A stretch of 64,000 bases of DNA from a virus, in the IMG/VR virus record IMGVR_UViG_3300046506_000327, positions 1 through 64,000 of that record; one strand, written 5' to 3'. Of the stretch, positions 3,193-52,752 are shown piece after piece (the first letter of the stretch is position 1; each line of letters begins with the position of its first letter). The translations under genes and the position numbers were made by a program. The notes under the pieces were generated by a model. That model saw only the letters and a list, made by a program, of their open reading frames with translations. It ran no database searches and was not told the DNA's origin.

Positions 3193-3283
3193 GGCGGGGT
3201 GTTCTCCTCGTGGCGGGTCGAGGGGGGTGGTGGTGGTTGGTTGCGGGTACCCAGCTGGCGGGCGAGAGCACCTGGCAACGGCT

Positions 3284-3317
3284 CCACTCTAATGCATCAA
3301 CAGTTGCGCGTCTACTG
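3284..3317 (-). promoter_or_regulatory. Promoter/operator P1 of the GCAAC-N4-GTTGC family
   Basis: Read on the minus strand: TAGACG, then the imperfect palindrome GCAACTGTTGATGC (+ coordinates 3294-3307), then TTAGAGT. The -35 includes the TAG stop codon of the upstream gene. Drives the 2995-3192 unit down to the window edge. Confidence 0.7.
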
Positions 3318-4569: not shown

Positions 4570-5001
4570 TCAGTTCTCCTTGATGTAGTGGTGGAGGGCG
4601 TCGGCGGCGTCCGCGCGGCGCATGTAGGGGCCGCCGACGTGGCCGTCCGGCGCGGCGAAGTACGAGCTGCGGCCGACGAGGAACGTGATGCCCTTCCCGG
4701 CGCCGTAGCCGAAGGCGTCCGCGCTGGGGTACGCCTTCATGACCATCTTCTGCAGGTCACCGATCGGGTGCGGGCCGCTCTCCATCGGCGACACCCAGTC
4801 CGGGAACTCCCGCTTCATCAGCTGCTGGCCGGTCTCCCAGCCCCACAGCTTGATGAACTGCGGGTACATGGGCTGGTCGAGGCGGAAGCCCTTTCCGGGG
4901 CACGGCACGCCGTTGCCGGAGTCGTGAGCGCGCAGGGCGCCGGTCTTCGTCACGGTGACGGGGTAGCTCCGGCAGCCGGGGCAGGTAACGGAGTTGGGCA
5001 T
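4570..5001 (-). CDS. Hypothetical protein with N-terminal zinc-knuckle, 143 aa
   Basis: ATG at 5001. N-terminal CPGC and a later CPGKGF could form a metal site (residues 7-34). The C-terminal half is the same module as in 3312-3779, here [19 protein letters not shown], ending in a Tyr-containing helix. The two genes flank three others in one operon, consistent with an old duplication. Confidence 0.65.
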
Positions 5002-5997: not shown

Positions 5998-6627
5998 TCA
6001 GTCACCGGTGTCGGTGTAGTGCTGCCAGCCGCAGTGCGGGCAGTTGGCGTTCCAGCCGCAGCCGGTGTCCTTGAAGGTGACGCCGGGGCGCAGGCACTCG
6101 GGGCAGGCGGTGCGGGCGGGCTTGGAGCTGGGGCCGAACGGGCCGTCGTGGTCAGGGCTGCCGTCGGCGTGGCGCAGCGACGGGAACCGGCCGTCGCCGG
6201 AGAACAGCTCGTTCTCGAACGGGTCCGGGTCCGGCGTGCGGTTGGTCCAGCGGAACGTGGCGCGGGCGAGCTGCTTGCTGCAGTCGGGGCAGTCGCCCAC
6301 GTCCGGCTGCAGCACCGAGACCTGCTCCTCACCGGCGCGCGTCCACAGGGCGGAGGGGGTGATGCGGACGGCGGCGCGCTCGGCGCGGGCCACAAGGACG
6401 GCGGCGGCGTGCTCGCGGGTGTAGCGGGGGCGCTCCGGCATCGCGCCGGTGGGATCGGCCCAGTAGAAGTACCGCAGCTGCCCGTGGGCGGGCACGGCGA
6501 ACGTCAGGCCGATGAACTTGCCCTCGTGCTCGTGGGTTTGGGTCTGGGTGGCCCTGGGGTGCTTCTCGGCGATGATGCGCCGCAGGTCGATGGCCTCGGT
6601 CTCGTGCGGGGTCTCGGTGTCGGGCAT
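5998..6627 (-). CDS. Zinc-finger protein, 209 aa
   Basis: ATG at 6627 chosen, after AGGCAGGA; an upstream ATG at 6663 would overlap the -10 of P3. Contains three Cys pairs: CPDC (about 124-127), CPEC, and CPHC near the C-terminus, with the final part (CGWNANCPHCGWQHY) resembling a zinc ribbon. A single-gene unit between P3 and P2. Could be a nucleic-acid-binding or host-takeover protein; family unknown. Confidence 0.65.
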   Translation of the reverse strand: MPDTETPHETEAIDLRRIIAEKHPRATQTQTHEHEGKFIGLTFAVPAHGQLRYFYWADPTGAMPERPRYTREHAAAVLVARAERAAVRITPSALWTRAGEEQVSVLQPDVGDCPDCSKQLARATFRWTNRTPDPDPFENELFSGDGRFPSLRHADGSPDHDGPFGPSSKPARTACPECLRPGVTFKDTGCGWNANCPHCGWQHYTDTGD

Positions 6628-12027: not shown

Positions 12028-12054
12028 GTGCTCCTTAGTCAATGGCGGGGTACC

Positions 12055-12086
12055 CACTCTAGGGCAACGGCCGTTGCCCGTGTCAA
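12055..12086 (-). promoter_or_regulatory. Promoter/operator P4
   Basis: Minus strand: TTGACAC, perfect palindrome GCAACGGCCGTTGC (12064-12077), TAGAGT. Drives the long unit from 12027 to 6716. Confidence 0.8.
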
Positions 12087-19656: not shown

Positions 19657-19696
19657 GGGTGGGGCTCCTTCGTGGTGGTGTCCGGCGGGACGTCGC

Positions 19697-19729
19697 CCAC
19701 TCTACAGCAACAGTTGTTGCCCGTGTCAA
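19697..19729 (-). promoter_or_regulatory. Promoter/operator P8
   Basis: Minus strand: TTGACAC, core GCAACAACTGTTGC (19707-19720), TAGAGT. Confidence 0.8.
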
Positions 19730-19886: not shown

Positions 19887-20161
19887 CCGGTCACCTCCTG
19901 GATGATCTCTCGGGTGAAGCGCCAGCCGTGGCGGCTGTCGCGGCCGTTGAACAGGCACGGGCGCACGGTGATCTCATCGGCGCTGCCGCGCACGGTGATC
20001 TCGTGGTGCGCGCTGCGCCACGCCCTGATGTGGGCTGTCACAGACTCGCCGTCGATGAGGCTGCCTCCCATGAGCGCCCACAACGCGCCGCCGTCCTCCG
20101 TGCGCTCACCCTTGTACAGGTCGGCGGATGGAACAGCGCTCTCATCGAAGAGCTGCGTCAC
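19883..20161 (-). CDS. Hypothetical protein, 92 aa
   Basis: Overlaps the upstream gene by 4 nt. N-terminus acidic (MTQLFDESAVPSADLYKGER), C-terminal half strand-rich with alternating charges (AHHEITVRGSADEITVRP). No family recognised. Confidence 0.6.
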   Translation of the reverse strand: MTQLFDESAVPSADLYKGERTEDGGALWALMGGSLIDGESVTAHIRAWRSAHHEITVRGSADEITVRPCLFNGRDSRHGWRFTREIIQEVTG

Positions 20162-20790
20162 TGCTCCCCGCCCTCGGCTTCACGGAGGGTGGCGCATACC
20201 TGCGACCAGCGCGCGCACTCCACGGGCGCGCCGTCGCGGGTGACGGTCCACGACATGTCACCGTCGGCCCAGTCGACGCCGTCGGCGTGGTGGTCGAGGG
20301 CGAGCACGGCGTGAACCTGGACGGCTCCCCGGCGGGCGATGAGGTGGTGGCCGTCGGTGTCGGGGTAGGCGTCCTCAGGACGCACGCGCGCACCGCTCCT
20401 GAGCAGGCTCGTCATTGCGGTCCTGAGCGGTTCGGGCATCGGGTTGGTTCGCACGGTGTAACGGCCCGCCGTCGCCTCCTCCTCGTCGCGCTCGACGGTG
20501 GCGACGTACGCGCTGGAGGTGTCGCGCCACTGGCCCGCGACGCGCCACCCAGCCGCGCGCATGAGCGCCTCGGCCTCGTTGATGCCGTCCTGGGCGTCAC
20601 CGTCCTTGGCGTTCACGGTGGTGACGGCATAGAACGGCTGCGGCTTGCTGGTGTCATCCGACCAGTGGGTTTCGTTGTCCGGATCCGCTCCCAACAACTC
20701 GTCTTCAATGATCGTGACGTCCATGTTCGGCTGGTCCAGCACGCTACTGCCGGTGGCCATCCAGGCCGTGAAGTGGCGGCGGGTCGTCAT
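20158..20790 (-). CDS. Hypothetical protein with an 'AAGW' module, 210 aa
   Basis: Residues 55-105 (QPFYAVTTVNAKDGDAQDGI ... ALMRAAGWRVAGQW ... SAYVATVERDEE) form a small strand-helix-strand unit with the motif L-x-x-A-A-G-W, which recurs in 22658-24931 and 25055-26149. The rest includes HHLIARRGAVQVHAVLALDH and a Trp/Ser C-terminal part. A tRNA-like structure lies just upstream. Unknown family. Confidence 0.6.
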   Translation of the reverse strand: MTTRRHFTAWMATGSSVLDQPNMDVTIIEDELLGADPDNETHWSDDTSKPQPFYAVTTVNAKDGDAQDGINEAEALMRAAGWRVAGQWRDTSSAYVATVERDEEEATAGRYTVRTNPMPEPLRTAMTSLLRSGARVRPEDAYPDTDGHHLIARRGAVQVHAVLALDHHADGVDWADGDMSWTVTRDGAPVECARWSQVCATLREAEGGEQ

Positions 20791-20825: not shown

Positions 20826-20893
20826 GCCCCGGACAGGCATCGAACCTGACTCGGACCGTGCCCCGCCCGATCGGCGGCGGGCGGGGCCAGGGC
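20826..20893 (-). other. tRNA-like structure TLS-1
   Basis: Minus-strand RNA of 68 nt. GCCCTGG at the 5' end pairs with CCGGGGC at the 3' end (7 bp, one G-U). Inside are a GC hairpin (CCCCGCCCG stem, 9 bp) and a T-arm with CAGG/CCTG and the 7-nt loop TTCGATG. There is no D-arm or anticodon arm and no CCA. Lies between the stop of 20902-21159 and the start of 20158-20790. Confidence 0.6.
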
Positions 20894-20901
20894 TGCCGTG
20901 C

Positions 20902-21159
20902 TCAGTGCTGGCAGCCGCCGCGCCAGTCGGACAGGGCGCCGCTGATCACGTCGCCGACGGTGTTCTCGCCCTCCTCGTTGAACTCACCCCAGTTCTGGTG
21001 CAGCCACTCGGAGAAGGGGCGGGCGGAGTAGGCGGGCAACTCGTTCTCCGCGAGGACGTACTCAAAGATCATTTGCGCGTCGACCTCCTGCACCCCCTCC
21101 CGCTCGTCCTGCTCGACGTCGCCGGACTGCGCGAGCGCCTTCGGGTTGATCTTGTCCAT
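20902..21159 (-). CDS. Acidic hypothetical protein, 85 aa
   Basis: Glu/Asp-rich (QDEREGVQEVDAQMIFEYVL, NWGEFNEEGENTVGDVISGA), helical. Flanked by tRNA-like structures on both sides. No family recognised; small and acidic, as many phage inhibitors are, but this is only a resemblance. Confidence 0.6.
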   Translation of the reverse strand: MDKINPKALAQSGDVEQDEREGVQEVDAQMIFEYVLAENELPAYSARPFSEWLHQNWGEFNEEGENTVGDVISGALSDWRGGCQH

Positions 21160-21194
21160 GCTCTGTCCCTCGTGGTGGTGGGATGGTGCGGAGC

Positions 21195-21256
21195 GCCCCG
21201 GACCGGAGTCGAACCGGACCGAGCCGCCACGCCCCCTCGCGGGGGCGGGCCGGGGC
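21195..21256 (-). other. tRNA-like structure TLS-2
   Basis: 62 nt. GCCCCGG pairs with CCGGGGC (7 bp, perfect). Inner hairpin GCCCCC-GCGA-GGGGGC. T-arm CCGG/CCGG with the canonical loop TTCGACT. Lies between 21265-21708 and 20902-21159. Confidence 0.6.
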
Positions 21257-21264
21257 TGGTGGTG

Positions 21265-21708
21265 CTACTTGTCCGCCTGGTAGCGGTTGTGGGCGCGGAA
21301 GGCCGCGCGGCGCTCCTCGATCGGAAGCGTCTCGTCCTTGATCTTGGCCTTGTTGGCCTCGATGTCCTCTCGCGGGGACTCGGCGGTGATGATCGGCCGC
21401 TCGACGCACAGCAGCTCTCCACGCCTGATCAGGTCGGTAGAGCCGTCGGCGTAGAACACCTCGGCCGTGCCGGGGTCGGCGTCCTCGGCCCGCTCAACCC
21501 GCGCGATCTCCTTGAACTTGTCCAGGTGGCCATGGGCGGCCCACGGCTGCTCGGGCTTGCGGTGGTTACCGGCCGCCGTCCGGGTGGTGTAGTGGGGGAT
21601 ACGGTCGGCCGCCAGACCCTTCAGGCCGATGATCCGCTTGTACTCCGGGGCGTCGTCACGGGCGGCGACCACTGCTTCGCCGGGCGTCAGGTTGTCGAAG
21701 GTGCTCAT
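21265..21708 (-). CDS. Hypothetical protein, 147 aa
   Basis: First gene after P9. N-terminus FDNLTPGEAVVAARDDAPEY, basic middle (HYTTRTAAGNHRKPEQPWAA), strand-rich part AEVFYADGSTDLIRRGELLC, and an acidic/basic helical tail. No family recognised. Confidence 0.6.
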   Translation of the reverse strand: MSTFDNLTPGEAVVAARDDAPEYKRIIGLKGLAADRIPHYTTRTAAGNHRKPEQPWAAHGHLDKFKEIARVERAEDADPGTAEVFYADGSTDLIRRGELLCVERPIITAESPREDIEANKAKIKDETLPIEERRAAFRAHNRYQADK

Positions 21709-21759
21709 GCGGGTCTCATCTCTGGTGGCGGGAAGTGCCGGGTTCCCCCGGCTGTGATT

Positions 21760-21790
21760 CCACTCTATAGCAACAGGCGTTGCGTGTCTA
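21760..21790 (-). promoter_or_regulatory. Promoter/operator P9
   Basis: Minus strand: TAGACAC, core GCAACGCCTGTTGC (21770-21783), TATAGAGT. The tRNA-like element TLS-3 ends 6 nt from its -35. Confidence 0.75.
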
Positions 21791-21796
21791 CTGTGC

Positions 21797-21860
21797 GCCC
21801 CGGGCAGGCATTGAACCTGCCTCGGTCCGGCGCCCCGCCCTGGGTGGGCGGGGCCGGGGC
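21797..21860 (-). other. tRNA-like structure TLS-3
   Basis: 64 nt, the most tRNA-like of the three. 7-bp perfect acceptor-type stem GCCCCGG/CCGGGGC. Hairpin CCCCGCCC-ACCCA-GGGCGGGG. A 5-bp T-stem GCAGG/CCTGC with loop TTCAATG sits directly against the 3' acceptor strand, as in real tRNAs. Lies between the stop of 21868-22533 and P9. Confidence 0.65.
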
Positions 21861-21867
21861 GGTGGTG

Positions 21868-22533
21868 CTAGAGCGCGCTAGCGAAGTCGTCGTAGGCGTC
21901 GCCCAGGAAGGTGCGCAGCTCCGCGTGCAGGGCCGCGAAGGCGTTGTACCGGGCCTGGATCTCCTTGGGCTCGCCGCTGACGCTCATGTCAGCCGCCCAC
22001 TCCTGGGCGTTATCCCAGGCATCGGCGTTGGCGGCGTCGGAGAGCAGGGCTTCCAGTACCTCGGCGGCCTCCGGCGCGACCAGGCAACCGCCGTTCTGCG
22101 GGAGGCTGTTGGCGTAGCTCTGGCCGTACCCACGGAACAGCATGGTGCGCCGCTGGGGGTTCTCGTCGCCGCCGTACATGTTCATGTCGGTCACGATGGT
22201 CAGCACCACGTCGTACACGTCGTAGTCGTGCTCGCGGGTCGGGGAGCCGTTGAAGCTGTTGACGTAGATCGGGATGATCTTGATGCCGTGCTCCGCGATC
22301 AGGTCGTCGAGGGACTTGTCGCCGTCCTCGTCCTCGGCCGGGGTGACCAGTTCACGGGGGATCGCGGGGACCTGGTGGGGGTACTTGTAGTAATCCCCGT
22401 CGATGGCCACGTGGACGACCTCGCCGCCGTGGTCGCGGTCGACCGTGCCGGTCGCGGCCGGGAACAGGTGGCCGTCGCGCTCGGTCTCGGCGATCTCGAC
22501 GCGGTCACCGGCGGCGAACTGGATGTAGGCCAT
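21868..22533 (-). CDS. Hypothetical protein, 221 aa
   Basis: ATG at 22533 after AAGGAGTACCCC. Residues 1-50 are an SH3/KOW-like strand set (GDRVEIAETERDG ... GEVVHVAIDGDYYKYP), the middle contains DVYDVVLTIVTDMNMYGGDE, and the end is Ala-rich helical (ALHAELRTFLGDAYDDFASA). Single-gene unit from P10. No family recognised. Confidence 0.6.
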   Translation of the reverse strand: MAYIQFAAGDRVEIAETERDGHLFPAATGTVDRDHGGEVVHVAIDGDYYKYPHQVPAIPRELVTPAEDEDGDKSLDDLIAEHGIKIIPIYVNSFNGSPTREHDYDVYDVVLTIVTDMNMYGGDENPQRRTMLFRGYGQSYANSLPQNGGCLVAPEAAEVLEALLSDAANADAWDNAQEWAADMSVSGEPKEIQARYNAFAALHAELRTFLGDAYDDFASAL

Positions 22534-22593
22534 GGGGTACTCCTTGGAAGTTGTGGCGGGGCTTTCCTCCGGGCTTCCCCGGCGGGCATGGCC

Positions 22594-22626
22594 CCACTCT
22601 ATCGCAACACGTGTTGCCTGTGTCAA
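22594..22626 (-). promoter_or_regulatory. Promoter/operator P10
   Basis: Minus strand: TTGACAC, perfect palindrome GCAACACGTGTTGC (22604-22617), GATAGAGT. Confidence 0.85.
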
Positions 22627-24931: not shown

Positions 24932-24970
24932 TGCGGGCCCTCCTTGTGTTCCTTGGCGGGTTGACATGCC

Positions 24971-25001
24971 CCACACTATAGCAACATCTGTTGCGTGTCT
25001 A
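24971..25001 (-). promoter_or_regulatory. Promoter/operator P11
   Basis: Minus strand: TAGACAC, core GCAACAGATGTTGC (24981-24994), TATAGTG. Confidence 0.75.
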
Positions 25002-30241: not shown

Positions 30242-30366
30242 GGCGGGGACTCCTGACGGTGAAGGACTGGCGGGTGCCCTTTACTCGGTCGCCGGAATGT
30301 TCACGCTATGCGCTGGACCATGGCGGCGGTCAGCGCGAAGTGTTTACAACTCCGACGACAACGCCC

Positions 30367-30399
30367 CCACTCTAGCGCACCAATTGTTGCGCGTGTCAA
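30367..30399 (-). promoter_or_regulatory. Promoter/operator P14
   Basis: Minus strand: TTGACAC, core GCAACAATTGGTGC (30377-30390), CTAGAGT. The right-most member of the left-arm series. Confidence 0.8.
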
Positions 30400-45207: not shown

Positions 45208-47112
45208 CTAGAGCGTGGTGGGTGTGCTGGGGCGGAGGCCGAGGCGAGCGGCGTGGCGGGCCGTCCCGACAAAGGTGACCACCTCGGTCGCTTCCCAGCC
45301 GACTGCGGGCAGTTGCGGCATGAACCGCTTGTGCCGGTCGACGTATTGCAGCGTCATATGGGCCGTCCAGCCGTGCTCACTGGGAAGGCGGTACCCGTAT
45401 CGCTCCAGGTAGTCGGCCAGACTGACGTGCATCTGTACCCCGCCAGGTATATCGGGGTGAGCCCACAGGACGTGCTGGTCTTTGTAGGCGTTGTTGAACG
45501 TGCCAACGCCTCCGATGTGGATCGTAACTGCCTTTTGCCGCATTGCCCAGGCCGAAACCAGTTGGGGCAGCAATGCCAGCTGCTCCTTGGTGTAGTCGGC
45601 CGCATTGCCCAGGTACGCCAGAGTGATATGCAGGTCATCGACCAATTGCCCGCCGTGCAGGGCGAGTTGCTCGGCCACCTCGGGCGGTGGAACGAACGCA
45701 ACCATCACGCCATCGCCGTTCGCAACGGCAGCCGCCTGCCGCTGCAGCAGGCGCTCCTCGGCCTCGGTCAGTTGCAGGGAGGCGGTGTGATGCGTCGGCT
45801 CGGTCCACTCCTCGTCGGGACCGTGGACGGCAGGATGCTCGATATGAGGGCCGTTGTAGCCCCACTCGTTGATGTCGTTGCCGTCGGTGTGGACGTGCTT
45901 GGCCGGGACGGTGGCCTTGAGGACCGGCCAGTCTTTCGAGGGGTCGTCTGGATGCATGCCGTGCTCGCGGGCGTACTGGGAAGACGTGCTGACCCAGTCT
46001 CCGGTGCGGATGTGGCTGACACCGTGTGGGACTGAGCGGTAGATGGTCACTGGGGTGTCCGGCTTCCCCTTGGTCCGGTGGACGGCCGCCAGGGATTCCT
46101 CGTGGGGCTCCCCAATGCTGCCCCAGTCGGGGTTGTCGAGGTCCTCCTGATTGAAGGCGCCCCCCTCCCCGCTGGGGTGGGTCGGATCGTGTAGCGGAGC
46201 ATTGTGAGGGCCTGGAGCCCGGTGCATCATCTTGCCGTCGTCGTCCACGGAAGCAGTCTGCTGCAGGTTTGCCGTCCGGAAGAAGTCCGTCAGGCCGGAC
46301 AGGCGCTTCTGGGCGGCCTCGTAGTTGTGGGGGCCGATGTGGCCGATGAACAGCCGGTGCGCGCTCTCGGGCGAGGTGGGGTTGCCGTCGGCGTCCTCGA
46401 AGCGGTGGGTGACGCGGTGCAGGAAGTCGGCGCGGGACGAGCGCCAGCCGCCGTTCTCCCACTGCCCTCCGTTGAGGGCGTGGTCGTACTTGTGCTGCTC
46501 GCCGCGTGCGAGGCGGTCGATGGTGTTGAGGGTCTTCTCCTGGACCTCGGGGTGGAGGCCGTCGAAGTCCTTCTCTGCGCCCTTGTGGAACTCCACCGGC
46601 AGGGAGCCGCCCTCGTGGCTGGCGCCCAGGCGCTGCTCGGCGTCGGCGACGTTGTGTCCGGCGTAGCCGACGTGGAGGGTCTTAGTGTCGGGGTCGGTGC
46701 GGTGGACGACCTGGTGGCCGCCGGAGGTGATGGCGGCGTGCCAGCCCTCCAGCGGGTGGGAGAGCGGGTAGCTGGTCACGCCGGAGCGGCCGTGCTGCAG
46801 GGCGGTGATGGTGTCCTGCACGTGGCGGGCGCCGCCTCCGAGGCGGTCGAGGTCGCCCTGCAGCTCCGGGTGGCGCTCTACTTCTGCTGCTGCGCGGACA
46901 CGGCGGCCCGGTGCCGCAGCTCGTTCAGGCTGACCGGGCTGCGGTCGCTGGCCGTCTCGTGCCGGTGCAGCAGCTCGGCCTCGATATCCGGCGCGATCAG
47001 CTCCGGGGTGGTCGGCAGCTCGTCCTGCGGCAGGGTCGTTTCGTGCATGGTCCCCTCCATGGGAGGCATCGTACGCGCCACGGAAGTGGGCGACGGCGTT
47101 GAACTCGGTCAT
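45208..47112 (-). CDS. Polyvalent protein: YoeB-like + ADP-ribosyltransferase + 2H phosphoesterase, 634 aa
   Basis: Residues 172-265 resemble a YoeB/RelE-type toxin (VEFHKGAEKDFDGL ... GGWRSSRADFLHRVTHRFED ... IGHIGPHNY). Residues 350-420 have the R-S-E ADP-ribosyltransferase pattern (TIYRS, STSS, NDINEWGY). Residues 468-600 are a 2H phosphoesterase/RNA ligase with two H-x-T motifs (LHITLAY, AHMTLQY). The N-terminal MTEFNAVAHFRGAY resembles that of the next protein. Residues 24-80 look out of frame and overlap a separate ORF; a GTG at 46821 is an alternative start (537 aa). Placed after the terminase. Confidence 0.7.
   Translation of the reverse strand: MTEFNAVAHFRGAYDASHGGDHARNDPAAGRAADHPGADRAGYRGRAAAPARDGQRPQPGQPERAAAPGRRVRAAAEVERHPELQGDLDRLGGGARHVQDTITALQHGRSGVTSYPLSHPLEGWHAAITSGGHQVVHRTDPDTKTLHVGYAGHNVADAEQRLGASHEGGSLPVEFHKGAEKDFDGLHPEVQEKTLNTIDRLARGEQHKYDHALNGGQWENGGWRSSRADFLHRVTHRFEDADGNPTSPESAHRLFIGHIGPHNYEAAQKRLSGLTDFFRTANLQQTASVDDDGKMMHRAPGPHNAPLHDPTHPSGEGGAFNQEDLDNPDWGSIGEPHEESLAAVHRTKGKPDTPVTIYRSVPHGVSHIRTGDWVSTSSQYAREHGMHPDDPSKDWPVLKATVPAKHVHTDGNDINEWGYNGPHIEHPAVHGPDEEWTEPTHHTASLQLTEAEERLLQRQAAAVANGDGVMVAFVPPPEVAEQLALHGGQLVDDLHITLAYLGNAADYTKEQLALLPQLVSAWAMRQKAVTIHIGGVGTFNNAYKDQHVLWAHPDIPGGVQMHVSLADYLERYGYRLPSEHGWTAHMTLQYVDRHKRFMPQLPAVGWEATEVVTFVGTARHAARLGLRPSTPTTL
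46878..47048 (-). CDS. Nested 56-aa ORF, possible gene or frameshift remnant
   Basis: ATG at 47048 after GGAGGGGACC. Encodes a helical acidic protein starting MHETTLPQDELPTTPELIAP and ending in AQQQK. Its third-position GC is high, unlike the overlapping frame of 45208-47112 here. Joining the frames would give a continuous protein (AQQQ then VERHPELQ), so either it is an independent gene or the region carries two compensating frameshifts. Confidence 0.5.
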   Translation of the reverse strand: MHETTLPQDELPTTPELIAPDIEAELLHRHETASDRSPVSLNELRHRAAVSAQQQK

Positions 47113-50550: not shown

Positions 50551-52752
50551 TCAGCGGCGATATCCGGACCTTGTGCGACCGAGACCTTGATCCCAGCCCT
50601 GGCGTCCGGTACGGGTGCGCGTGAAGGATCGCAGAGCGTCCAGGCGGCCCTGCATGTCCTGGTCAGGCATGGCCAGGTCAGGGGTGCGGGCGCTGGATCC
50701 GTGCAGGCCGCCCATCATGGCGCCAGTGGGCATGGCGCCGTTGAGCATCTCCTTGTAGCCCTCGATCCAGTCGCCGATGAGGGCGAAGGTTGTGATCATG
50801 ATCGCATCGGCGATGTCCTTGGTCTGGACGGGGCCGATGGTGGGGTGATCGACGCGGTTAATGCCGGGCTTCTTCTGGAGGAACTTCAGCTCCAGCATGC
50901 CCTCTTCGTGCTCGGGCGCGTGGACGAGGCCCATGTTGATCGCGGCCTTGAAGGTCTCGGCGTAGCGCCAGTTGAGCTGGTTGGTGGCTGTGCGCTCCCA
51001 GATGTTGACCTTCTTGGGCAGGCGCGTTCTGGCGGTCCGCTTGACGAGTGACTGGATGGATCCGACCGACTGGTACTGGTCGAAGGTGAAGTCCTCGGGG
51101 GCGAAGGGGACGATCATGTCGTCCCAGATCCAGTCCTCGACCTCCTCGTAGTCGATGGTGTGGCCAGGAAAGTCGGCCGGATCGAAGTAGTGGATCTTGT
51201 CGAAGACGACGTGGGGGCGCCCCTCGGCGTCGATCTCTGTATGGGCGAGGGCGACGCCGAAGCGGCAGTTGACGGAGCTGGGGTCGGCGTGGCCCTTGTA
51301 CGTGTAGGCAAGGATGCCCTGGGTGGTGGGCAGGATGAGCGGGCTACCGTAATCGGCGGGGCGCTCGTGCCACGGACCGAAGACGGATTCGACCTTGTCC
51401 GGATTGAGGTAGGCGTCCAGGACGGTGGCCCACTGGGCTCGGCGCTCGACGGCGAAAGTGTCGGGGTCGGCCTTCTCCAGTTTGCGCATCTCTTCGTCGA
51501 AGTTCTGGATGGCGCCCTTGAGGGGCTTGAAGCCGGGCGGGTCGCAGTCGACGTACTCGCCGTTGTCGCCGGTGAATCCCTCGGGGAAGAGGGGCAGCTC
51601 GTGGGCGATCTGCCAGTCGAGGTAGACGTCCCAGCTGGGGAGCTGGATCATCATGACGTTCGCGTAGGTGGGGGTGCCGTCGTCCTCGTAGCTGGTGGCG
51701 CGCAGCCAGTTGTCGTAGAACTTGCCGCTCATCTCCCATGGCGAGCTGGGCTCGACGATGAAGCCGTCCTTGCCGAACTGGTCGAGGGAGGGGGTGGAGG
51801 CGTCGTAGACCTCTCCGGCGGAGCGGTTGGCGCCTGAGTTGACGACGTGGGCCATCTCGTCGAAGCCGAGGATCATGGAGGCGGGGCCACGGCCTGCCAT
51901 GACGGTGGATTCCTTGGGCAGGATGTGGAAGGTGGCCATGTCCATGGCGGTCTTGATGCCGCGCTTGCGCATGTCTTCCATGCGGATGAAGTCGTTCGGC
52001 GCGTAGACGGAGAGCTTCTCGCCGAGGCTGTCGGCGATGTACGGGGCGAAGCACGGGCCGCCGGTAACGACGTTGACGAGGTCGCGCCACAGGTTCTGCT
52101 TGGCCTGGTCGCGCTTACCGGCGAAGATCAGCACGGCGAGCTTCTTGTCGCGGTCGACGCCGTAGAACTCCTGGGGGTCGCCCTTGGCCATGTAGCACCA
52201 CAGGACGTAGGCCATGGCCAGGGCGCTGATGTGGCCCTTGCCTGCGCGGCGGCCCATGACCAGGAGGATCTCTTTGAACCAGCTGTAGCCGAGGGCCTTG
52301 CAGGCGCGCATGCGGCCCAGGAGGTCCGGGGAGCCGGACAGGGGCATCTTGGGGGCGTCCTCGTTGCCTTCCAGCAGGGCCTGGGCGGCGATGGCGTCGA
52401 GGGCCTCGGTCATGATGCCGTCGACCTCGGCTGCGAGGGCGTCTTCGGGGCTGGTCTCGGCGAGTTCGGCGGCGCGGGCGGCGCGCTGTTCGTTGGAGGA
52501 CTTGGCGGTGCGGTAGGACTCGTCCCACTCGGCGACGACCCGGTAGTCGTAGTCCGTGAAGAGGTCTTCACGCAGGAAGAAGACCTTCAGGAGAGTGGCC
52601 TGCCTCGGGTAGAGGTTCGGCCGGTTCAGGTACCTCTGCGAGACCACGAACGTAATCGGGTCGGGGACCTCCAGGCCCAGGAACAGCTGGTGGATCTCCG
52701 TCGGATCGAAGTTCGCCAGGGGCGAGTTGTCCTCGTTGTTCTTGCTGGTCAT
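50551..52752 (-). CDS. Terminase large subunit, 733 aa
   Basis: Walker A GRRAGKGH (residues 167-174), Walker B ILGFDEMAH (294-302) with the catalytic Glu, and a C-terminal nuclease part (GVALAHTEIDAEGRPHVVFD, EDWIWDDMIVPFAPEDFTFD ... KDIADAIMITTFALIG) with the Asp residues of an RNase-H-like fold. Cuts and packages phage DNA into the capsid. Preceded by tandem ACCGTTA repeats and a divergent promoter region. Longer than usual (about 550), mostly at the N-terminus. Confidence 0.9.
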   Translation of the reverse strand: MTSKNNEDNSPLANFDPTEIHQLFLGLEVPDPITFVVSQRYLNRPNLYPRQATLLKVFFLREDLFTDYDYRVVAEWDESYRTAKSSNEQRAARAAELAETSPEDALAAEVDGIMTEALDAIAAQALLEGNEDAPKMPLSGSPDLLGRMRACKALGYSWFKEILLVMGRRAGKGHISALAMAYVLWCYMAKGDPQEFYGVDRDKKLAVLIFAGKRDQAKQNLWRDLVNVVTGGPCFAPYIADSLGEKLSVYAPNDFIRMEDMRKRGIKTAMDMATFHILPKESTVMAGRGPASMILGFDEMAHVVNSGANRSAGEVYDASTPSLDQFGKDGFIVEPSSPWEMSGKFYDNWLRATSYEDDGTPTYANVMMIQLPSWDVYLDWQIAHELPLFPEGFTGDNGEYVDCDPPGFKPLKGAIQNFDEEMRKLEKADPDTFAVERRAQWATVLDAYLNPDKVESVFGPWHERPADYGSPLILPTTQGILAYTYKGHADPSSVNCRFGVALAHTEIDAEGRPHVVFDKIHYFDPADFPGHTIDYEEVEDWIWDDMIVPFAPEDFTFDQYQSVGSIQSLVKRTARTRLPKKVNIWERTATNQLNWRYAETFKAAINMGLVHAPEHEEGMLELKFLQKKPGINRVDHPTIGPVQTKDIADAIMITTFALIGDWIEGYKEMLNGAMPTGAMMGGLHGSSARTPDLAMPDQDMQGRLDALRSFTRTRTGRQGWDQGLGRTRSGYRR

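Follow-up and report, generated by a model that had tools for sequence, protein, structure and literature searches.

Candidate tRNA-like processing signals without a decoding half at the gene junctions of phage operons

In animal mitochondria, tRNAs located between genes mark the points at which polycistronic transcripts are cut, and in tmRNA a tRNA-like domain is built of an acceptor stem and a T-arm with a stemless D-loop. Non-decoding tRNA-like elements are also known, as t-elements; they occur in plant mitochondria (cox1, ccmC and other genes) and in Haloferax volcanii (upstream of 5S rRNA), where, like the elements described here, they are tRNA-like and lie at gene ends (PMC11658184; PMC4326828). 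Both RNase P and RNase Z cut them, in plant mitochondria (PMC11658184) as well as in Haloferax (PMC4326828). The model hairpins of Altman and McClain (the AT model) consist of the acceptor stem, T-stem and T-loop alone, and E. coli RNase P (RNA) cuts them efficiently and in the right place (PMC11143913).

The window analyzed here, 64,000 nt in length, comprises positions 1–64,000 of a 79.7-kb viral contig of a Streptomyces phage. Three consecutive gene junctions of its minus strand contain one tRNA-like structure (TLS) apiece, built of an acceptor stem and a T-arm and lacking an anticodon arm (Table 1). As with t-elements, each is a tRNA-like structure at a gene end. An earlier note on this DNA had reported the three elements, and their positions and strand were all confirmed from the sequence. 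The 7-nt acceptor strand is GCCCCGG in TLS-2 and TLS-3 and GCCCTGG in TLS-1, with CCGGGGC as the partner in all three, and the 7-nt T-loops (TTCGATG, TTCGACT and TTCAATG) are of the type TTCRANN. The T-arm is contiguous with the 7-bp acceptor, a trait of tRNA (RF00005), and a GC hairpin with a linker takes the place of the D and anticodon arms. The T-stem pair 49–65 is an open U-U in TLS-1 and TLS-2 and is closed only in TLS-3. The fifth acceptor pair is indeed U-G in TLS-1 and C-G in the other two, which had been taken as a sign of kept pairing; the change is real, but its evidential weight is very weak, as the window-type acceptor hardly varies.

Table 1. Coordinates of the TLS, their neighboring genes and other features of the window
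Feature	Positions	Strand	Description
TLS-1	20826–20893	minus	68 nt; acceptor 20887–20893 with 20826–20832; GC hairpin and CGGTCCGAG linker 20850–20886; T-arm 20833–20849, loop 20838–20844
TLS-2	21195–21256	minus	62 nt; acceptor 21250–21256 with 21195–21201; hairpin and linker 21219–21249; T-arm 21202–21218, loop 21207–21213
TLS-3	21797–21860	minus	64 nt; acceptor 21854–21860 with 21797–21803; hairpin and CGGACCGAG linker 21821–21853; T-arm 21804–21820, loop 21809–21815
Gene upstream of TLS-3	21868–22533	minus	No assigned function; no Pfam match; start is the ATG picked after SD AAGGAG (mechanical ORF extends to 22641)
Gene between TLS-3 and TLS-2	21265–21708	minus	147 aa; no assigned function; conserved in relatives
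Gene between TLS-2 and TLS-1	20902–21159	minus	85 aa; no assigned function
Gene downstream of TLS-1	20158–20790	minus	210 aa; no assigned function
Promoter-like repeat between TLS-3 and the next gene	21756–21787	minus	Family D1: TAGACA, GCAAC/GTTGC palindrome, TATAGAGT
Some other D1 copies	3280–3311, 12050–12081, 19693–19724, 22590–22621, 24967–24998, 30363–30394	minus	15 copies in the window, including 21756–21787
634-aa protein	45208–47112	minus	ParB-C-terminal-like domain and LigT/2H phosphoesterase (2'-5' RNA ligase) domain
Terminase large subunit	50551–52752		

Each TLS lies between two genes of the same strand and starts 8 nt (TLS-1, gene 20902), 8 nt (TLS-2, gene 21265) or 7 nt (TLS-3, gene 21868) after a stop codon. 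The next ATG follows TLS-1 and TLS-2 after a 35-nt leader, and lies 88 nt downstream of TLS-3, beyond a promoter-like repeat. A Pfam search of the four flanking genes returned no family, and inspection of the sequence revealed no U run of an intrinsic terminator after any of the three TLS. The promoter-like repeat belongs to a family (D1: TTGACA, GCAAC..GTTGC palindrome, TAGAGT) whose copies on the minus strand lie upstream of genes; with its position between the -35 and -10 boxes, the palindrome looks like a shared operator for a repressor or an activator.

In agreement with the earlier note, these elements cannot be normal tRNAs, having neither an encoded CCA nor an anticodon arm and receiving no call from ARAGORN. 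The missing CCA is a true observation but uninformative alone, because CCA is encoded by no more than 37% of the tRNAs that ARAGORN called in the fetched loci. A cloverleaf tRNA (RF00005) was rejected (no anticodon arm, no ARAGORN tRNA, no Rfam match). A tmRNA was rejected as well: there is no mRNA-like domain with a tag, ARAGORN found no tmRNA in the window, and the next genes begin 35–88 nt downstream. Rfam holds no match for these TLS; for those of the window none reached the gathering level, and only chance matches appeared up to E 10.

A descriptor comprising the T-arm and a contiguous 6-bp acceptor matched exactly the three TLS in the 64-kb window and gave one match in the reversed window. 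Over all loci (2.7 Mb) it gave 779 matches, tRNAs included, against 13 in the reversed sequence. Folding alone recovered the acceptor and the T-arm in all three window TLS, with z-scores of -3.7 (TLS-3), -1.4 (TLS-2) and -2.2 (TLS-1).

Relatives were reached through the 147-aa gene that follows TLS-3, and more of them through pattern scans. Five related Streptomyces elements, mostly 150-kb phage-plasmids, carry two or three TLS each in the same gene neighborhood: the circular pRLB1-9.1 (154 kb) of Streptomyces sp. RLB1-9, a 157-kb contig of Streptomyces sp. MH60, a contig of Streptomyces sp. A0642 and two viral contigs. A plasmid of Streptomyces NBC_00015 has one further window-type TLS; in the plasmid pLB1 of Micromonospora, three places were examined and are not TLS. 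The TLS-3 ortholog precedes the same orthologous gene (start MSTFD or similar) in pRLB1-9.1, L003, L187 and L186, with T-stems that vary (GCAGG/CCTGC, CCGGG/CCCGA, CTGGG/CCCGG and ACCGG/CCGGC). The homologues keep the 7-bp stem and the T-loop, features whose loss in related phages would, according to the earlier note, have spoken against its proposal. Since the window-type acceptor is nearly invariant, covariation within this group is modest and comes from the T-stem and the hairpin. No named phage was matched when the TLS region was searched with BLASTN, since its relatives are phage-plasmids; matches did appear with short TLS queries once the E-value was relaxed.

From loci sharing only the T-arm and one acceptor strand, a smaller form of about 43 nt was obtained (mini-TLS), which consists of the acceptor stem, a GG-containing linker such as TGGTCGCAGG and the T-arm. 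It is present in Gordonia, Mycobacterium and Streptomyces phages and in many viral contigs. BLAST of this form against annotated phages matched VanLee, MakoManhole, Morgana, Cafasso, Aleemily and ObLaDi (Gordonia), Sheen, SWU2, Phlei, MyraDee and Journey13 (Mycobacterium) and Dagobah (Streptomyces), mostly at places with no annotated feature. Linker lengths are bimodal, 10–14 nt in the mini forms and 25–39 nt in the window type, and reach at least 40 nt in tRNAs. A covariance model built from distant mini-TLS alone, with no window sequence (R1), finds TLS-2 of the window (E 0.0075) and a relative in G005 (E 1.6e-5), which links the mini form to the window type. Judged from their sequences, elements of the same kind appear to mark gene boundaries in many unrelated phages, probably for host tRNA-cutting enzymes to cut long mRNA. 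Two sets of matches were set aside: those in Vulcanisaeta and Geothermarchaeota look like archaeal tRNAs picked by the pattern, and the GCATGTA...TACATGC matches resemble ordinary tRNAs that ARAGORN failed to call.

The use of the mini form is most complete in the early operon of Gordonia phage VanLee, where TLS were found in 16 of the 16 gapped junctions (every gap of at least 70 nt was read), 15 of them by the descriptor and the sixteenth by model R1. At the junctions without TLS, the genes overlap or nearly touch. The VanLee acceptors include GCCCTG/CAGGGC, GCCTGG/CCAGGC, GCTCCG/CGGAGC and GTCCCG/CGGGAC, and a tiny D-arm-like hairpin (CTC-TGGT-GAG) is kept in some of these TLS. Downstream of most VanLee TLS (L205), the leader begins with ACG, a hairpin and GGCACGGCACCCAAC, followed by the SD; the complement GGTTTGGGTGCC is also present at junction 6188–6361. 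Bacterial Ro proteins bind tRNA-like Y RNAs, and a gene for a Ro-like RNA-binding protein adjoins the single tRNA-Arg of VanLee (record 65751–67367).

Other contigs broaden the range of forms. A 43,758-bp contig (L219) has three near-identical TLS within 270 nt (4718–4991). Low-GC contigs (L234, L253, L268 and L227) have TLS whose acceptors are of the AACTG/CAGTT type, and the start that follows is not preceded by an SD; in L234, starts without SD are accompanied by A-rich leaders. By their sequences these contigs probably belong to phages of another phylum, and those such as L234 look like phages of Bacteroidota. Seven loci (L015, L043, L049, L051, L085, L034 and L064) contain tRNA-like genes with an intact acceptor, D-arm and T-arm and a shrunken or odd anticodon arm, which may be transitional forms between tRNAs and TLS.

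It is the mini form, not the window type, that supplies the decisive covariation. For an unbiased test of the acceptor, viral contigs were scanned with a pattern in which only the linker and the T-loop side were prescribed, leaving acceptor pairing free. Among the 82 distinct non-tRNA matches, 45 had all six acceptor pairs, against 4.8% with permuted 3' strands, and these 45 represent 28 different stem sequences. In a gap-free alignment of 35 mini-TLS, 99.8% of the cells are paired and the covariation is 0.853, against 0.176 ± 0.020 in shuffles and at most 0.124 with slid partners; this alignment was selected partly by acceptor pairing, so the 82-match test is the fair one. Pairs were counted on a single-register subset, MAFFT having misregistered two columns in an alignment of all TLS with 10-nt linkers.

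This evidence bears on the suggestion, also made in the earlier note, that TLS are degraded tRNA genes left at junctions. Six of the seven loci listed above (all except L051) make descent from tRNAs plausible. However, the strong compensatory change, the serial use at every gapped junction and the conservation across genomes show selection on the present form, and we consider decay, already largely refuted, highly improbable.

Placement was examined in a set of 178 TLS. It was gathered with patterns favoring certain linkers and T-loops, so the frequencies of GG and of the T-loop are partly selected; acceptor pairing (in the 82-match test), stop-codon placement and the effect at position -2 described below were not selected by the search patterns. 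A start 6–12 nt after the stop codon of an open frame was found for 98 of the 178 TLS (55%), against 46 of 890 random positions (5%) and 48 of 520 tRNAs (9%). A stop at most 20 nt upstream combined with an SD start at most 120 nt downstream characterizes 75 of the 178 (42%), against 4–6% at shifted positions. In cellular genomes TLS are nearly absent: mini-TLS occur in 2 of 150 Actinomycetota genomes and window-type TLS in 1 of 101 Streptomyces genomes, namely that of the phage-plasmid host itself. TLS are thus phage-specific.

A role as decoys or regulators, by which transcripts would sequester tRNA-acting enzymes or defense nucleases, fits the tRNA mimicry and the several copies per phage. 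Such a role would not need the strict intercistronic placement after stop codons and does not explain it, and without an anticodon arm there is no target for anticodon nucleases; we regard it as very unlikely. The constant spacing between the stop, the TLS and the next SD or start could instead point to junction signals of translation or transcription (for example reinitiation elements, or antiterminators like put of HK022) that merely resemble the top half of tRNA. Against this, acceptor sequences differ freely provided that pairing is preserved (28 stems), in contrast to the tRNA-specific T-loop, C74 and GG, which are retained; neither put elements nor reinitiation signals are known to need a tRNA-type T-loop, C74 or GG. 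Signals of this type are an unlikely explanation.

The flanks of TLS resemble those of pre-tRNAs in several respects. C74 is present in 89% of TLS, against 92% of tRNAs, R73-C74 is kept in most copies, and 102 of 103 short TLS have GG at a constant position, a figure partly selected by the search pattern. Of the minimal substrate of RNase P, TLS have the acceptor/T-stem stack and the T-loop and lack the 3' RCCA; CCA helps bacterial RNase P, and only 6% of TLS encode it. Pairing of N-2 with N74 is avoided (13 observed, 49 ± 5.6 expected). Since N-2/C74 pairing is reported to influence the rates of RNase P cleavage (PMC12710915), its avoidance is expected of an RNase P substrate. Overall, the features kept in TLS are those read by enzymes acting on tRNA ends, and the features lost are those read by translation. 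Several observations count against processing: U at -1 is rare (8% in TLS, in which A reaches 52%, against 60% in the tRNAs here, in which it is the commonest base), N-1:N73 pairing is not avoided (44 observed, 48.7 expected), CCA is not encoded, pair 49–65 is open in TLS-1 and TLS-2, and the window-type acceptor is nearly invariant. Given the rarity of U(-1), cleavage could be less efficient or shifted to a different position.

The very stable folds immediately after stop codons could also act as caps that stabilize mRNA 3' ends by blocking 3'-5' exonucleases, possibly with CCA addition; this would need no cut on the 5' side and would be compatible with cleavage by RNase Z alone. Nevertheless, any GC hairpin would stabilize an end, whereas the exact T-loop, the contiguous stack of T-arm and acceptor, the GG and C74 point to recognition by tRNA enzymes, and it is to the 5' side that the avoided pairing of N-2 with C74 relates. 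We consider stabilization alone unlikely.

Taken together, the kept features of tRNA ends, the effect at position -2 and the precedents of model hairpins and t-elements favor the cutting of polycistronic mRNA at gene junctions. We propose, with a probability of roughly 0.6, that TLS serve as "punctuation" of polycistronic phage mRNA, being minimal processing signals that resemble tRNA. Among the three readings of the earlier note, namely RNase P/Z processing marks, decoys and degraded tRNAs, the first is best supported, by the kept stem and T-loop and the repeated placement after stops. The broader proposition has about an even chance of being correct: that phages of Actinomycetota, and probably those of other phyla too, have a widespread, undescribed class of RNA elements, the smallest of about 43 nt, which divides polycistronic mRNA at junctions by presenting mimics of the tRNA top half to host RNase P and RNase Z.

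Each TLS folds as the coaxial acceptor stem and T-arm of tRNA. According to the processing model, the GG of the linker could replace G18G19 of the D-loop in docking on the T-loop, and the tRNA elbow may thus persist without the decoding half. The operon would be transcribed through, and the ribosome ending the upstream gene would halt 6–12 nt before the acceptor stem and then leave. This spacing suggests that the terminating ribosome would occlude the acceptor strand and so postpone folding. Once the TLS has folded, host RNase P would cut its 5' side, leaving an upstream mRNA with a very short 3' UTR, and host RNase Z would cut 3' of the discriminator base, so that the downstream mRNA would begin, with a new 5' end, about 35–50 nt before its start codon. 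The outcome would be separate mRNAs whose ends and lifetimes could differ. If this is true, phages shape their operon mRNA with borrowed tRNA-processing enzymes and not with nucleases or terminators of their own, TLS are natural minimal substrates of RNase P and RNase Z, the hundred-base gaps of phage operons that are now annotated as empty are explained, and a compact part for cutting polycistronic RNA becomes available.

We found no description of TLS in the open-access literature, an absence that is no proof of novelty. The announcement of Gordonia phage CaiB (cluster DR) reported repeated gene-junction regions in Gordonia rubripertincta phages; its motif (GAGAGGAC, ACCCGCTC, GCGGGA and TGTTGT) is the region upstream of starts, and the tRNA-likeness was not noticed there (PMC9302106). 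The punctuation marks of animal mitochondria are working tRNAs, whereas phage TLS are unable to decode. In contrast to tmRNA, TLS have no mRNA-like domain or tag, occur in many copies and are intercistronic. The t-elements are described as homologs of tRNA genes with a typical tRNA-like secondary structure, few per genome, and as RNase P/RNase Z cutting signals, a role that is predicted for phage TLS (PMC11658184; PMC4326828). TLS share the layout of T-arm and acceptor with tRNA genes, and intermediate forms with a D-arm exist; however, they comprise only the acceptor, the T-arm and a GG linker or one hairpin, and they are used serially in operons. The Altman/McClain substrates, made up of acceptor stem, T-stem and T-loop only, have almost the architecture of the 43-nt mini-TLS (PMC11143913), but they are synthetic, whereas TLS are natural, do without an encoded CCA and possess a linker with a conserved GG.
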